Shown here: piece by piece, positions 32,845-63,659 of the stretch | Layout: each line of letters begins with the position of its first letter | Position numbering within the stretch: position 1 is the first letter of the stretch | DNA from: Bacteroidetes bacterium 2013_40CM_41_45 | GTDB lineage: Bacteria; Bacteroidota; Bacteroidia; AKYH767-A; 2013-40CM-41-45 | Direction: 5' to 3' | Assembly: GCA_002215675.1 (NCBI GenBank) | Contig: NGFH01000002.1 | Span: forward strand, 140,975 to 204,974 | Length of the DNA: 64,000 nucleotides | Position numbers and translations under genes: made by a program | The notes under the pieces: model-generated | Told to the model about the DNA's origin: nothing | Database searches by the model: none | What the model saw: only the letters and a program-made list of their open reading frames with translations

Positions 32845-34077
32845 CTAATTTACAGTTAAAAGTTTTTGATATACGGAATCGTACTTTTCAATTCCACCGG
32901 CCAGCGAAAAATATTCTTCAGCTGCTTTTCTGAAGCGGTCAGTATCCGATGCACGAAACTTACCCATCTGTTTAATTACATTACTATAAGCGTCATCTGT
33001 GAATCCATCAGTTAGGATACCGCAGTGGTATTTGCTTACAATATCGTCCATATCTCCGATACCACGGTTGCAAATAAAAGGAATTCCCATGCTTAGGAGT
33101 TCTCCGAATTTTGTGGGCGAAGATGCCATTTTTGAATATACAGGTTTTATAAATGCGATTGAAAAATCAGAAAAGGAAAGCAGCGATGGCAATTCATGCC
33201 TTTCTGATTTCTGCACCAGTATGTTTTCATCAGGAATATTATGCAATTGCGATTTCATTCTTATGGCCTGTTCACGTTCATGGGTTATGAAAAGAAATTT
33301 TGCATTTGGTTTTTCGGATGACAATAGTTTAAAAAAACCGAGCATCTCATCCAGCATATACCATGTGCCGATTGTGCCAAGATAAGTCAAAATAAAGGTA
33401 TCTTCAGTGATTCCGAGTTTTTGTTTAAAACCCATACGCAAGTCCTCACTGATATAGTTGCGCGAAAACAAATTCAGGTCTGTACAGGTTGGGATAACTT
33501 CAATATTCAACGGTTTTGGGCTCGTGTTTTTCCATGACAGGATTTCATCTTTGGCTTTCTGAGTAAGGGAAACAATATAATCTGCCATGCCGAAAAATTC
33601 TTTTTCCTTTTTTTTAAAAAAGCGGTAAACCCAGTTATAGAAAGGGTTTCGGAGGTTCCATATTTTTCCATCAATGCGTTCCTCAATCCAGAAACCCCGA
33701 ATGTCAAAAATAAATTTAACGCCGTATTTTTTCTTAAGAAAGAGCCCCGCAAATGCGGGTATGTAACTTCGGCAGTGAACAATTTTGAATTTATTTTTAT
33801 GTTGCAACGCACGCGCCTTAAAAATCATTCTTACTATATCCCACACTGTAGAAAGTATAGGTGGCGACTTGGTGTAAGCCAGCGGATACCATTGAATATT
33901 ATTTTTTTTAAGAATGCCTCTTACGGCAGCTTCACCGGATAAGAATTGTTTTTTTTTTTCGAAGCTTATCAAGTCAATTTCATGTCCTTTTCCGGACAGC
34001 CCGCTGAGATATGGAATTACCTGCGATTGCCCGAGCGGGTCCGTCATACCATCGTAAGAGATATACAGTACAGACAC
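32845..34077 (-). CDS. Glycosyltransferase, GT4-like
   Basis: A 410-residue GT-B-fold glycosyltransferase. The N-terminal segment YISYDGMTDPLGQSQVIPYL is typical of a GT4 subgroup found in exopolysaccharide clusters. The C-terminal donor domain ends in the region SSPTKFGELLSMGIPFIC. Donor and acceptor are not evident. It lies between GT2 and asnB-like genes in the same direction with gaps of 8 and 17 bp. Confidence 0.85.
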   Translation of the reverse strand: MSVLYISYDGMTDPLGQSQVIPYLSGLSGKGHEIDLISFEKKKQFLSGEAAVRGILKKNNIQWYPLAYTKSPPILSTVWDIVRMIFKARALQHKNKFKIVHCRSYIPAFAGLFLKKKYGVKFIFDIRGFWIEERIDGKIWNLRNPFYNWVYRFFKKKEKEFFGMADYIVSLTQKAKDEILSWKNTSPKPLNIEVIPTCTDLNLFSRNYISEDLRMGFKQKLGITEDTFILTYLGTIGTWYMLDEMLGFFKLLSSEKPNAKFLFITHEREQAIRMKSQLHNIPDENILVQKSERHELPSLLSFSDFSIAFIKPVYSKMASSPTKFGELLSMGIPFICNRGIGDMDDIVSKYHCGILTDGFTDDAYSNVIKQMGKFRASDTDRFRKAAEEYFSLAGGIEKYDSVYQKLLTVN

Positions 34078-58712: not shown

Positions 58713-59462
58713 TTAGGAAGTTTTTTTTCCTTTCTCGCATAACAAAAAAATGCTCGAGCAAAGGTCGGGGTATTGCTGACCAAGTTGATAGCATCCTTCA
58801 AGATATTCCCTACTTATTATGTCAGTATTCAGTAACCTGTCCCACTGAAAATTAGCAAGCGCTTTAAAAAATATTCCGGAACGATAAACCACTTTTAAAC
58901 CCGCAGCCCTCGCATCTCTTTCCAGCGTGTCCAATGAATAGGTGATTCTATGACCATGTTCTTTCTCGGCCGGAGTCACCGCTGAATTATGATTTATTAA
59001 TCCCATCTTAACGGCAATTTGCCTGGATGGAGCATTGGCATTGGGGCAAACCAAAAAGAACCTTCCTGTGTCTGATAACCATTCTTCGTTTATTCTTCTT
59101 AGCACCAGCACCGGGTCATCAAGATGTTCCAGCACATGGGTCAGCACAATGTTATCATATTTACCGGGTAAGCTTACCTCTTCAAAAAGTGCATTAAAGT
59201 AGCGGATGTTTCCACCAAGTGTTTCTTTTGCAACTTTGATTCCTTCATCTGATGCCTCCACGCATGTAATGTCTTTAAAGTATGGAAGAAAGCGTTTGGT
59301 AAAATCTCCTTTAAAGCTTCCTAATTCAAGAAGGTTGCCTTCACGAAAGAAGGGAAGGAACGACTTGAGCATGAAAGGATGCATTACATCAAAGTCAAAA
59401 TTGTAAGCATATTTATGCTCTTTGGTGTCTTTGGATTCGGCATTATAATTTCGTTGGTCCAT
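58713..59462 (-). CDS. Class I SAM-dependent methyltransferase
   Basis: A 249-residue enzyme with motif I LLELGSFKGDFTKRFLP and the post-motif sequence VLTHVLEHLDDPVLVLRRIN. It belongs to the Methyltransf_11/23 group, often involved in sugar or lipid-carrier methylation. It is directly adjacent to the GNAT gene (no gap). The substrate is unknown. Confidence 0.87.
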   Translation of the reverse strand: MDQRNYNAESKDTKEHKYAYNFDFDVMHPFMLKSFLPFFREGNLLELGSFKGDFTKRFLPYFKDITCVEASDEGIKVAKETLGGNIRYFNALFEEVSLPGKYDNIVLTHVLEHLDDPVLVLRRINEEWLSDTGRFFLVCPNANAPSRQIAVKMGLINHNSAVTPAEKEHGHRITYSLDTLERDARAAGLKVVYRSGIFFKALANFQWDRLLNTDIISREYLEGCYQLGQQYPDLCSSIFLLCEKGKKTS

Positions 59463-59915
59463 TTAAGACAGTTTTAATTTCATCAACAACTGATTATCCT
59501 TGTTTTCATAAACCAGGAAGTTAAATTTATTGTAGAGCTTAATGGCATCAAAATTGTCATCAGAAACTTCTAACCGTATTTCTACAAAGTTATTTTTCCG
59601 TGCATACTCAATGCAGGACTTGATTAATTCCGATGCTATTCCTTTTCCCTCATATCGTTTAACAACGCTCACATCTGTAATGTATCCGTAATGATTAGCG
59701 ATGTCATTGAAATACGCTGCAATTAAAGCAACGAGATTTTTTTTATCCCACGCCTCAAAGGTAACAGCATTTTTAAAAATTTTTTTTGCATAATCGGGCA
59801 GATTAACACGCTGACGCAACTGATTAATAAAATTTTCGTCACAACCTTCGAAGTGAGAAAGCAAATCCGTTATCGTTGCAGTTGCTGATGTAAACATTAA
59901 CCCGGATTTATTCAT
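59463..59915 (-). CDS. GNAT acetyltransferase
   Basis: A 150-residue N-acetyltransferase with the CoA-binding signature VKRYEGKGIASELIKSCI (R-x-x-G-x-G/A type) followed by EIRLEVSDDNFDAIKLYNKF. In this locus it may acetylate the amino group that the DegT-type aminotransferase introduces. The WbqC remnant lies between them, separated by two propeller genes. Confidence 0.85.
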   Translation of the reverse strand: MNKSGLMFTSATATITDLLSHFEGCDENFINQLRQRVNLPDYAKKIFKNAVTFEAWDKKNLVALIAAYFNDIANHYGYITDVSVVKRYEGKGIASELIKSCIEYARKNNFVEIRLEVSDDNFDAIKLYNKFNFLVYENKDNQLLMKLKLS

Positions 59916-59924
59916 TCAGCGATT

Positions 59925-60890
59925 TTAATTTTCTAACAAGGCAAGTCCAAAACCATAACGCCCGAATTCATTCCCATTATAGAGCAAATATATCCTGCCA
60001 TCGCATTCAAAAATATTTGGATAACACATCATATCAGAATCCCACCCATTTTCTGAAACATCAATTCCAAGATTCCTGTCATCTCTTACCCAGTGATTCA
60101 AATCTTCAGAATATGCAAGGCCAAGACGATAAGCATTCGCTTTGTTTGTTCTGAAATCGATAGCCTGCCTGTAACAAAACACCATAAAGTATTTAGTTCC
60201 TAGTTTTATTACACTCGGCAGTGCCTGGCACTCATCTGCATTTAATTTATCGGGGATTACCTGTCTATTTTTTTTCTGCCAATTAATTCCATCTCCAGAA
60301 GTTGCACAACCGATTTTGTACACTCTCTCCGGAGATTCATTTCCGGCCGGCTGAATCCACCGTGTTCCGTAGATATACCACATAAAGTAATTGCCGTTAA
60401 AGATAGTTACAAACGGGTCACCGACTAAAAATGGCTCATACAGAGAAGCGGTAAGGATTGGGCCGTCACCGCTCTTCCCGAATGTCAAGCCATTGTCTCT
60501 GCTTACAGCCAAACCAATCGAGGTTTCAACCGGTACCGATATCCTGCGGCTCCATCCGCACGTATAGCTAATGATTTTATTTTTATCCCGGACAACATTC
60601 ATCGGAAAAATTCCGTGCTCGTCAAAACACCCCGGCCTGCCTAATTCAATAACAGTTTGTGAAGAGTTATTAATAATTTTATTGAATTGTTTATCCATGT
60701 CAATAAAAGCAATATGGCTGAGATATTTTCCCGATAAATCTTTTTTTCTCACAGAAAAATAAATCCGGACAAAGTCATCGAACACAAGCGCTTGCGGCGA
60801 CTGTGCAAATTCATGGTATTCATTAAATAATTTAAATGTTGTTGGATCGAAAATCTTTCCCTGCTTTTTCCATTTCATTTTCTGTGGCAT
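59925..60890 (-). CDS. Five-bladed propeller, glycosidase-like protein (copy A)
   Basis: A 321-residue protein resembling GH43/GH32/GH130-type five-bladed beta-propellers: FAQSPQALVFDDFVRIYFS, FDEHGIFPMNVVRD, YEPFLVGDPFVTIFNGNYFM, NADECQALPSVIK and SEDLNHWVRDD. There is no signal peptide, so it acts in the cytosol. Proteins of this type recur in polysaccharide clusters, yet their reaction is unclear; they may be nucleotide-sugar modifying enzymes or phosphorylases. It is paralogous to the following gene. Confidence 0.8.
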   Translation of the reverse strand: MPQKMKWKKQGKIFDPTTFKLFNEYHEFAQSPQALVFDDFVRIYFSVRKKDLSGKYLSHIAFIDMDKQFNKIINNSSQTVIELGRPGCFDEHGIFPMNVVRDKNKIISYTCGWSRRISVPVETSIGLAVSRDNGLTFGKSGDGPILTASLYEPFLVGDPFVTIFNGNYFMWYIYGTRWIQPAGNESPERVYKIGCATSGDGINWQKKNRQVIPDKLNADECQALPSVIKLGTKYFMVFCYRQAIDFRTNKANAYRLGLAYSEDLNHWVRDDRNLGIDVSENGWDSDMMCYPNIFECDGRIYLLYNGNEFGRYGFGLALLEN

Positions 60891-60900
60891 TTAGCAATCT

Positions 60901-61854
60901 TCACGTCATTAACCGGGCTATGCCAAAACCATGTTTGCCCACTTGGTTTCCCAGGTAGAGCATGTAAATTTCATTATCCAGTTCAAATACGTGAGGGTAG
61001 GCGACCATTTCAGAATCCCATCCCGTGTCAGAAATATCTATTCCTGCTCTGGTATCATCCCTGGTCCAATTCAGCATATTATCAGAGGATGCATAGCCAA
61101 TCCGATATCCTCCTTCTTTGCCGCGATAGTTCAAGCTCTTGCGATAACAAAAAAACATATGGTATTTATTCTTGTAATAAAAAACATCGGGGCTTGCCTG
61201 GCATTCATTTTCTTCCAATTTACTTTCAATCAGTTCGTGATTCATTTTCGTCCAGTCAATTCCATTATCGGATGAAGCCATTCGAATCTTATAAACGGGT
61301 TCCATTCGGGTCTCAGCAGTCAGCCATTTTTTACCTGCTATGTACCATAAATACCAGCGGTTATTAAACCTCCGGATTTTCGGGCCGCTTAAAATAAACG
61401 GCTCATCTATAGTGTATGAAAGCACAGGGCCGTTGCCAAGCTTTGTAAATGTCTTTCCGTCGTCATGACTTACTGCGCAACCGATGGCAACATCAAAGGG
61501 CACAGATTCGCACCGGGTCCAGCCGCCATAATATGCAAAAATCTTGTCCTCATTTCTTATAACGGATGTAGGGTAAATTCCAAACTCGTCAAAAGCTCCT
61601 TTGCCGCCTAATTCCATAATAGGTTTTGCTGATACATTTAATATTTCGAATAAATTTTTTCGGTTAATATCCACGTACCCCGTATAACTCACGTAGTTCC
61701 CGTTATTTTCCCGGGGAGGCCTGCCCGAAAAATAAATTCGTACAAAATTATCGAACACTAAAACACATGGCGCCTGTGCAAATTCAGTAAGCCATGAAAT
61801 TCCCTTTACGTCTGACGGGTTAAAAATTCGACCTAACTTCTTCCACTTAAACAT
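60901..61854 (-). CDS. Five-bladed propeller, glycosidase-like protein (copy B)
   Basis: A 317-residue cytosolic propeller protein with FAQAPCVLVFDNFVRIYFS, FDEFGIYPTSVIRN, DEPFILSGPKI and NECQASPDVF. It is a tandem paralogue of copy A (10 bp apart). Acidic positions near each blade are shared, so both may be active. It is preceded by the disrupted wbqC. Confidence 0.8.
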   Translation of the reverse strand: MFKWKKLGRIFNPSDVKGISWLTEFAQAPCVLVFDNFVRIYFSGRPPRENNGNYVSYTGYVDINRKNLFEILNVSAKPIMELGGKGAFDEFGIYPTSVIRNEDKIFAYYGGWTRCESVPFDVAIGCAVSHDDGKTFTKLGNGPVLSYTIDEPFILSGPKIRRFNNRWYLWYIAGKKWLTAETRMEPVYKIRMASSDNGIDWTKMNHELIESKLEENECQASPDVFYYKNKYHMFFCYRKSLNYRGKEGGYRIGYASSDNMLNWTRDDTRAGIDISDTGWDSEMVAYPHVFELDNEIYMLYLGNQVGKHGFGIARLMT

Positions 61855-61862
61855 TTTAATGT

Positions 61863-62566
61863 TCAGATTAAAGTATAACCGGAGCTTAAATATTCTTTTA
61901 TTTTCTCTTTCGAATTAAACATCATCACATCAATCATCGACAACCAGGGTATAAACTTATTATTAAACTGGGGGTATATAATTTCATTCGACTTCAGGAA
62001 GCTTAAACCAATTCCCCTGTCTGCAAAATTTTTTTGTGAATAAAGCCCGGTGCCTCCAAGGGGGTTAATATATGCAGTGGCTTTTAGCGCCCGGCAAATT
62101 TCTATGACCTTCATTTCAGATTTCAGCGCATGGTCAATAGAAACTGAGGAAGAAATTATGAGACGGGCAGGTATGTTAAAATAATTTTTCAATTGTTCCA
62201 GCGAATAAAAAATAAAACGGAATAAATTATTCTCATTGCAAAGAATACAATCTTCAATGAGCGGGAATGCTGAAGTAAAGTGGGGAGATTTTTTATATGC
62301 TTCGGTTATTCTACGCAGCATTTTTTTTTTTCATCCTCCCAGCTATCGGCTAAAAATCTTTCTCCTACCTGCAGGTAATCTGACCCTTTTTTCAGCGGAA
62401 TGGTTATGAATATGTCCTTTCCGTTTACCAGTATCCGGTTCCTGTTTATCCAGCCCTTTTTCGTAAATTCAATATTATCGTAAACTACAAACGTATCTAC
62501 AGCATTCATCAACTGGAAATATCCGAGGTAGGGGAAAAAATAGGGTTGCATTATTGCTGCTTTCAT
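61863..62566 (-). pseudogene. wbqC-family gene split by an A11 frameshift
   Basis: The upstream part (from 62566) begins with the WbqC signature AAIMQPYFFPYLGYFQL and runs to GERFLADSWEDEKKK, then hits a stop. The downstream part (from 62321) continues in another frame with MLRRITEAYKKSPHF, PARLIISSS and GGTGLYSQKNFADRGIGLSF, which is the rest of WbqC. The two frames meet at a run of 11 A on the minus strand (62331-62321). One extra A, or two fewer, restores a single frame of about 234 residues, the normal family length. WbqC-like proteins occur in O-antigen loci near aminotransferases and are proposed to act on amino sugars. This may be a sequencing error, a phase-variable switch or a slippage site. 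Confidence 0.8.
62321..62331 (-). repeat. A11 homopolymer in wbqC
   Basis: Eleven consecutive A on the minus strand (T on the plus strand) at the exact frameshift point. Such tracts are prone to replicative and transcriptional slippage. 12 A or 9 A would join the frames. Confidence 0.95.
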
Positions 62567-62585
62567 AAGAAAGATTTTGAAAAGT

Positions 62586-63659
62586 TTACATGCTGTGTTT
62601 TATCAACCGTCCAATCATGTCTGCTTCTTCAAGAGTCAGCTGCGGATACAAAGGCAGGCATAACACACGGCTCGCAATATCTTCTGCTGTTTCGCAGCGC
62701 TGATAATTTTTAAGGTATGGAAGTTTATTCAGGGAAGGGAAAAAATACCGCCTGGTAAAAATTTTATTTTCGGCTAATATGTCCTTAATCCTCATTAAAG
62801 TATTTTCATCTTCGAATATCACAGGATAATACGCAAAGTTGTACAAAATATTTTTTGGTTTCTCCGGGAATTTCAAATTCACCCCCGATAAAATAGTGTC
62901 GTAACGTTCGCTCAGCTCTTTTCTTTTTTTAATTATCGAGGCAACATAAGGCAGATTACAGAGTCCCATGGCGGCATGAAATTCTGAATTTTTTCCATTA
63001 ATACCGGTACTTAAATACTCTTCTCCTATATGACCAAAGGATTTGAATAAAGAAATTTTTTTATTCAAATCACCCGACTGCGTAATGACGGCTCCCCCTT
63101 CGATGGTATGGAAAAGTTTTGTTGCATGAAAACTTACGGTGGAAATATCTCCGAAATTAAAAATAGATTGATTATTTATTTTAACACCGAAGGCATGCGC
63201 GCCATCGTAAATCACTTTGAGGTTATGTTTTTTTGCAATGCCTCCGATTTTATCGACATCGCATGGATAACCGTAAACATGCGTAGCAAGTATCGCTGAA
63301 GTTCTTTTGGTAATTACGCTTTCAATTTTATCGGCATCAATGCAAAATGTTTTTTTTTCAATATCGGTAAATACCGGCTCGCAGTTTTCCCATAGTATAG
63401 TGCCTACGGTGGCAACATAGGAAAAAGGAGTAGTGATTATTTCTCCTTTCAATTCAAGCGCCTTAATGGCTATTTGCAAAGCAATGGTACCGTTAGAAAC
63501 GAATTGTACATGCCGCACATCGAGGAACTCAGCAAGTTCTGTTTCCAGTTTCTGCACCATCGCTCCATGGTTGGTAACCCATCCGCTTTCCCAAATCTTA
63601 TGCAGACACGAAATATATTCTTCAATAGGAGGCAAATATGTCTTGGTTACGTTAATCAT
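62586..63659 (-). CDS. DegT/DnrJ/EryC1/StrS sugar aminotransferase (VioA-like)
   Basis: A 357-residue PLP-dependent sugar aminotransferase. The PLP lysine lies in STVSFHATKLFHTIEGGA, and the N-terminal YLPPIEEYISCLHKIWESGW and FVSNGTIALQIAIKALELKG closely match VioA-type enzymes that make dTDP-4-amino-4,6-dideoxyglucose. YDGAHAFGV carries the PLP-stacking Asp. With wbqC and the GNAT gene downstream, an N-acylated 4-amino-4,6-dideoxy sugar is the likely product, but no rmlA or rmlB is in the window. It is the first gene of the right-hand minus-strand cluster. Confidence 0.88.
   Translation of the reverse strand: MINVTKTYLPPIEEYISCLHKIWESGWVTNHGAMVQKLETELAEFLDVRHVQFVSNGTIALQIAIKALELKGEIITTPFSYVATVGTILWENCEPVFTDIEKKTFCIDADKIESVITKRTSAILATHVYGYPCDVDKIGGIAKKHNLKVIYDGAHAFGVKINNQSIFNFGDISTVSFHATKLFHTIEGGAVITQSGDLNKKISLFKSFGHIGEEYLSTGINGKNSEFHAAMGLCNLPYVASIIKKRKELSERYDTILSGVNLKFPEKPKNILYNFAYYPVIFEDENTLMRIKDILAENKIFTRRYFFPSLNKLPYLKNYQRCETAEDIASRVLCLPLYPQLTLEEADMIGRLIKHSM

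Follow-up and report, generated by a model that had tools for sequence, protein, structure and literature searches.

The gene wbqC is part of an extensive glycan locus in the window (the whole stretch of 64,000 nucleotides analysed here), where it is the second gene of a DegT-WbqC-(glycosidase-like)-GNAT-methyltransferase cassette (window positions 58713-63659; Table 1). It is present as two frames, which cover the Pfam profile PF08889 contiguously and each score above the curated cut-off (21.3 bits; profile length 218). The whole domain was recovered in this way, but as two frames and not as a single uninterrupted one, which makes the gene a frameshifted copy of a WbqC gene. Over approximately 700 bp, the sole lesion is the pure A tract at which one frame gives way to the other. 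The sequence-only reading had placed the split exactly at an 11-A run and had described both WbqC halves as preserved without further damage, and both statements hold.

Table 1 Features of the wbqC region and its cassette (window positions; aa, amino acids)
Feature	Position	Strand	Evidence or context
wbqC 5' part, 86-aa frame	62306..62566	-	PF08889 positions 1-72, E 6.8e-25, 88.6 bits
wbqC 3' part, 152-aa frame	61863..62321	-	PF08889 positions 78-217, E 8e-37, 127.6 bits
Pure A11 tract at the frame break, one short of an in-frame 12	62321..62331	-	sequence
GGGAGG, Shine-Dalgarno-like, 3 nt 5' of the A11 tract	62335..62340	-	sequence
DegT/DnrJ/EryC1 aminotransferase, intact, directly upstream of wbqC	62586..63659	-	directly upstream in 60/80 homolog loci
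Glycosidase-like gene (weak Pfam matches, GH32/GH43/GH130-type), intact, downstream of wbqC	60901..61854	-	
Second glycosidase-like gene, same kind, intact	59925..60890	-	
GNAT N-acetyltransferase, intact	59463..59915	-	downstream in 42/80 homolog loci
Methyltransferase, intact	58713..59462	-	downstream in 43/80 homolog loci

The tract is T11 on the plus strand and A11 on the minus strand, on which the sequence across the break reads ...TGG GAG GAT GAA AAA AAA AAA TGC TGC GTA GAA TAA. The 86-aa frame comprises 82 WbqC residues followed by C-C-V-E and a stop, which is reached 12 nt past the A11 run, and the 152-aa frame starts at an ATG that takes its A from the final base of the tract. When transcripts with different tract lengths were simulated, 12 A yielded a product of 234 aa, i.e., the full length of about 234 residues given in the sequence-only reading, and 9 A yielded 233 aa; tracts of 8, 10, 11, 13 or 14 A yielded a stub of 84-87 aa. 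The GGGAGG element in front of the tract encodes part of W-E-D and is not present in the homologs, and it is probably incidental. The frame break is a real feature of the assembly and is ordinary in kind.

Homologs of WbqC were collected by a scan of a genome collection, from which the 80 nearest were used (identity up to 63%); the closest were mostly from Bacteroidota, other phyla were represented as well, and the genomes searched included none of the same genus. All 80 homologs are unbroken single chains. None of them has A11 or longer at the site of the tract, and one has A10. Several close homologs carry an A8 at this site as GAA AGA AAA AAA ATG (E-R-K-K-M), and in the wbqC gene of the window a K replaces their R, by which the A run becomes pure. 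The 12-A product aligns to the closest homologs without a gap (W-x-x-E-R/K-K-K-M-L). Most simply, the comparison points to an in-frame ancestor with 12 A, in this lineage only, from which one A then went missing. Since the A11 tract is private to this genome among the homologs, the break is either recent or miscalled, and in both cases one would expect the halves to be intact. The preservation of the two halves is hence no sign of selection on both of them, contrary to what the sequence-only reading had suggested.

The cassette recurs across many phyla (loci L032-L111). Neighbours of the homologs were found by tblastn, and in 29 of the 80 homolog loci all cassette parts were located within approximately 3 kb downstream. 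In the window, the A11 break is the only damage in the cassette, the remaining genes of which are open. Damage confined to one spot of a cassette that is widespread and working agrees better with a recent mutation, an allele that leaks or a miscall than with old decay.

For the protein itself, a predicted model of an intact homolog (L034, 3001-3702; m6229d312aa19) showed one domain with a pLDDT of 95, and the wbqC break maps inside helix 76-91 of this fold; either half by itself is predicted to be inactive. A Foldseek search of the model against the PDB gave no significant match. A second-look structure alignment placed it closest to BshC (4wbd; Z 13.7, 3.4 Å, 225 aligned residues), with the next best hit at 8.1. 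BshC is the bacillithiol cysteine ligase and has a HUP fold, which the predicted model of the homolog matches over nearly the whole domain. In the model, MQPYFFPYIGYFQ follows the first strand, where HUP-fold enzymes have the HIGH motif. At the sequence level, profile comparison gave no link between WbqC and BshC (hhalign probability 1% against six BshC sequences of the order), no solved relative was found by PDB sequence search, and NCBIfam and PHROGs gave no match. In the literature searched, WbqC appears only as an uncharacterised protein of an O-antigen cluster (PMC5532660), and no paper on its biochemistry was found. A shared BshC-like fold shows no function; together with the DegT partner it suggests that WbqC may be a ligase with an amino sugar as substrate. 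The role in N-acylation or amino-sugar chemistry that the sequence-only reading had proposed would fit both the DegT neighbour and the predicted fold.

The first alternative to be weighed is an undercall during sequencing or assembly, in which the genome truly has 12 A and wbqC is an ordinary intact gene. An A11 run is the weakest spot of any sequencing platform, and a miscount at this position is therefore possible; the 12-A form fits all homologs, the remaining cassette is intact, and only one other A/T run of the genome (3.38 Mb, 11 contigs, ~41% G+C) is as long as that in wbqC. This genome contains 16 A/T runs of at least 10 nt, and the two with a length of 11 are both in the window. Thirteen of the 16 runs are in frame inside genes, which speaks against a general undercall, and two are at or before gene starts; of the 16, the wbqC tract alone interrupts a conserved gene. 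Shorter runs were surveyed in 464 kb, i.e., the window plus 400 kb elsewhere in the genome, where frames of at least 150 aa contain 128 runs of 8-9 nt; if none of these 128 is broken, the break rate at such runs is below ~2.3%. When frames split at a run of at least 7 nt were searched for, 31 candidates were returned; the 12 longest of these were checked by eye and turned out to be the ends of genes or pairs of different adjacent genes and not homopolymer breaks. A second homopolymer break was accordingly not found in the 464 kb among the 12 longest of the 31 candidates. The only G/C run of at least 8 nt in this sample is a G9 (L129:17169-17177), which is in frame in a conserved gene that looks NIF3-like by eye. 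Taken together, a systematic or gross homopolymer error is unlikely and an error from long-read-only sequencing is disfavoured, whereas a single error at this tract is possible; we consider the undercall the main rival explanation and a real possibility, albeit one on the unlikely side.

If the missing A is real, the effect on the product would depend on slippage at the tract, for which dnaX of the same order was used as a comparison. In 26 of 30 genomes of the order, which are mutually related so that no probability is attached to this count, dnaX contains a run of A8-A10 followed by a stop at most three codons on in the +1A/-1 frame; among the other in-frame A runs of at least 8 nt in the genome of the window, such a stop follows in 29-33%. 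The dnaX gene of this genome has an A10 (C7:21322-21331, minus strand; L161, with the relatives in L162-L190). The position of the run varies across the order (aa 367-478), and a conserved Shine-Dalgarno-like stimulator is apparently absent from the runs of the 30 dnaX genes. The dnaX run of the order is likely a recoding site for the gamma subunit, and slippage on A8-A10 tracts appears to be in use in this order. For wbqC, the same direction of shift would be needed, on a longer tract.

Published cases cover a range of outcomes. At the A9 of Thermus thermophilus dnaX, ~50% of the product is shifted (PMC1088944), in endosymbiont genes frameshifted at poly(A) 12-50% of the transcripts are corrected (PMC5009743), and E. 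coli lacZ with an A11 is another cited case of slippage (PMC6260861). The precedent nearest to wbqC is the V. cholerae O-antigen gene wbeL, in which a shortening of the A8 to A7 kept partial function, which was lost once the tract was interrupted (PMC3441752). Speaking against leakage, a transcriptome study from 2017 detected no reading frame restored by transcription indels in E. coli or Buchnera (PMC5574713). The wbqC break resembles transcriptional realignment at the A9/A10 tracts of dnaX (in Thermus and in the two-ORF A10 type, PMC3711429) in that the frame is shifted by one extra A or by a slip of -1, and it resembles the two-ORF A10 type further in that the longer product needs the slip. 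However, conservation throughout the order is seen for the dnaX tracts and not for the wbqC tract; all 80 WbqC homologs are organised in a single frame, whereas the slip site and frame organisation of dnaX are maintained. The genes of Buchnera and Blochmannia that are frameshifted at poly(A) and rescued by transcriptional slippage (PMC5009743) are similar to wbqC in that the shift occurs at a long A tract and the rest of the gene is intact, but they belong to AT-rich, reduced endosymbiont genomes, in contrast to a genome of 3.4 Mb with ~41% G+C that depletes long A/T runs. A programmed -1 ribosomal frameshift with stimulators was considered for wbqC but is not favoured: the Shine-Dalgarno-like element does not occur in the homologs, and the fold 3' of the tract is weak (z = -2.4; 5 of 200 shuffles as good).

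The wbqC gene is best explained as an otherwise intact gene in which a hypermutable A tract was caught one base short, leaving an allele that is probably leaky; we give this explanation about an even chance. The gene belongs to what would be a surface-glycan amino-sugar cassette, in which a recent Arg-to-Lys change (AGA to AAA type) would have merged with the codons of the conserved lysines to give an uninterrupted run of 12 A, a length at which replication becomes hypermutable. The sequenced clone or population would then carry the tract minus one A. Normal decoding of the A11 would end in the 86-aa stub, which terminates in the core helix. As slippage occurs on tracts of at least 9 A, either in transcription by RNA polymerase or as a -1 slip of the ribosome, the wbqC frame should be restored in a minority of mRNAs or translation events, which would yield the 234-aa WbqC; the allele is therefore probably leaky and reversible and not null. 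The tract, the break, the intactness of both halves and of the cassette, the arithmetic of the frames and the lack of such a tract in homologs are observations; that the cell truly lacks the A, that the allele leaks and that it can revert is what we infer from them.

A plain recent pseudogene, i.e., a fixed frameshift with no functional product and decay that has just begun, is unlikely. Full-length glycan-type wbqC is patchy among the relatives in the order, and the other wbqC found there (G023:C20, L026:1246-1950) is a pseudogene with several frameshifts and stops, from which it follows that loss of the gene is tolerated in the order. This decayed copy adjoins a transposase-like fragment. 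In the window, however, there is no second lesion in ~700 bp, the other cassette genes are undecayed, and an A11 is expected to leak and not to be silent.

Selected phase variation, in which wbqC would be a contingency locus whose tract length toggles the sugar chemistry of the glycan, is quite doubtful. The tract has a hypermutable length and switches the frame (A11; among the lengths of 8-14 tried, 9 or 12 A alone give the full-length product), and all four runs of at least 10 nt in the window (at 33949, 46407, 50895 and 62321) lie in glycosyltransferase or wbqC genes. Compared with expectations computed from dinucleotides, A/T runs are strongly depleted in the 400 kb outside the window (4 observed versus 20.5 expected at 10 nt or longer, 0 versus 7.6 at 11 nt or longer) but not in the window itself (4 versus 3.1 and 2 versus 1.2, respectively). 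This is compatible with contingency loci; the clustering in glycan genes was noticed post hoc, though, and relaxed selection in AT-biased accessory glycan genes would give the same pattern. A close precedent are the poly-A contingency loci wbeL and manA of V. cholerae O1 (PMC3441752), where, as in wbqC, a surface-glycan gene carries a pure A tract and the loss of one A leads to a short stub; the wbeL* variant retains some function in a tract-dependent manner. The in-frame A8 of wbeL is invariant in 37 strains and its variants are phage-selected, whereas the wbqC tract is longer and private to this genome. Upkeep of the tract in orthologs, as expected of a contingency locus, was not seen in any of the 80 homologs at 11 A or longer. 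The sequence-only reading had listed phase variation, slippage and error, which were the right options to consider, and a leaky slippage is made plausible by dnaX and wbeL; a selected switch gains no support from the homologs. Two further A10 runs lie just past the start codon and in frame, one in a cytosine-5 DNA methylase gene (L004:1501-1510) and one in a CheB/CheR fusion gene (L020:1501-1510), positions that are typical of slippage-switched genes.

A wider version of this idea, which we regard as speculative and improbable, would have the glycan locus spared from the purging of A/T runs, with its A tracts acting as joint switches at the DNA and RNA level: tract length would set a heritable on/off state, slippage would set a leaky, intermediate dose of WbqC, and WbqC would add an amino-acid-like group to the amino sugar made by the DegT enzyme. 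A two-chain enzyme, whose halves are translated separately and then associate, is highly improbable, as the break lies inside a helix of the predicted fold of L034, a normal start would have a shorter GGGAGG-ATG distance and the 80 nearest homologs have one chain, even though the second frame has its ATG at the tract, 13 nt past GGGAGG, and shares 16 nt with the end of the first frame.

On balance, the split is most likely due to a chance loss (or a miscount) of one base at a slippery A run, rather than to an evolved switch, in a glycan gene that has no other damage and is probably leaky. If the A11 is a miscall, the consequence is limited to a correction of the annotation. If it is real, wbqC would add to the glycan genes in which the reading frame depends on a slippery A tract, here within a genome that is not reduced, and dnaX of the same order would provide a built-in control for the leakiness of frameshifted "pseudogenes." The case is also a caution against calling split genes of this kind dead in an annotation.
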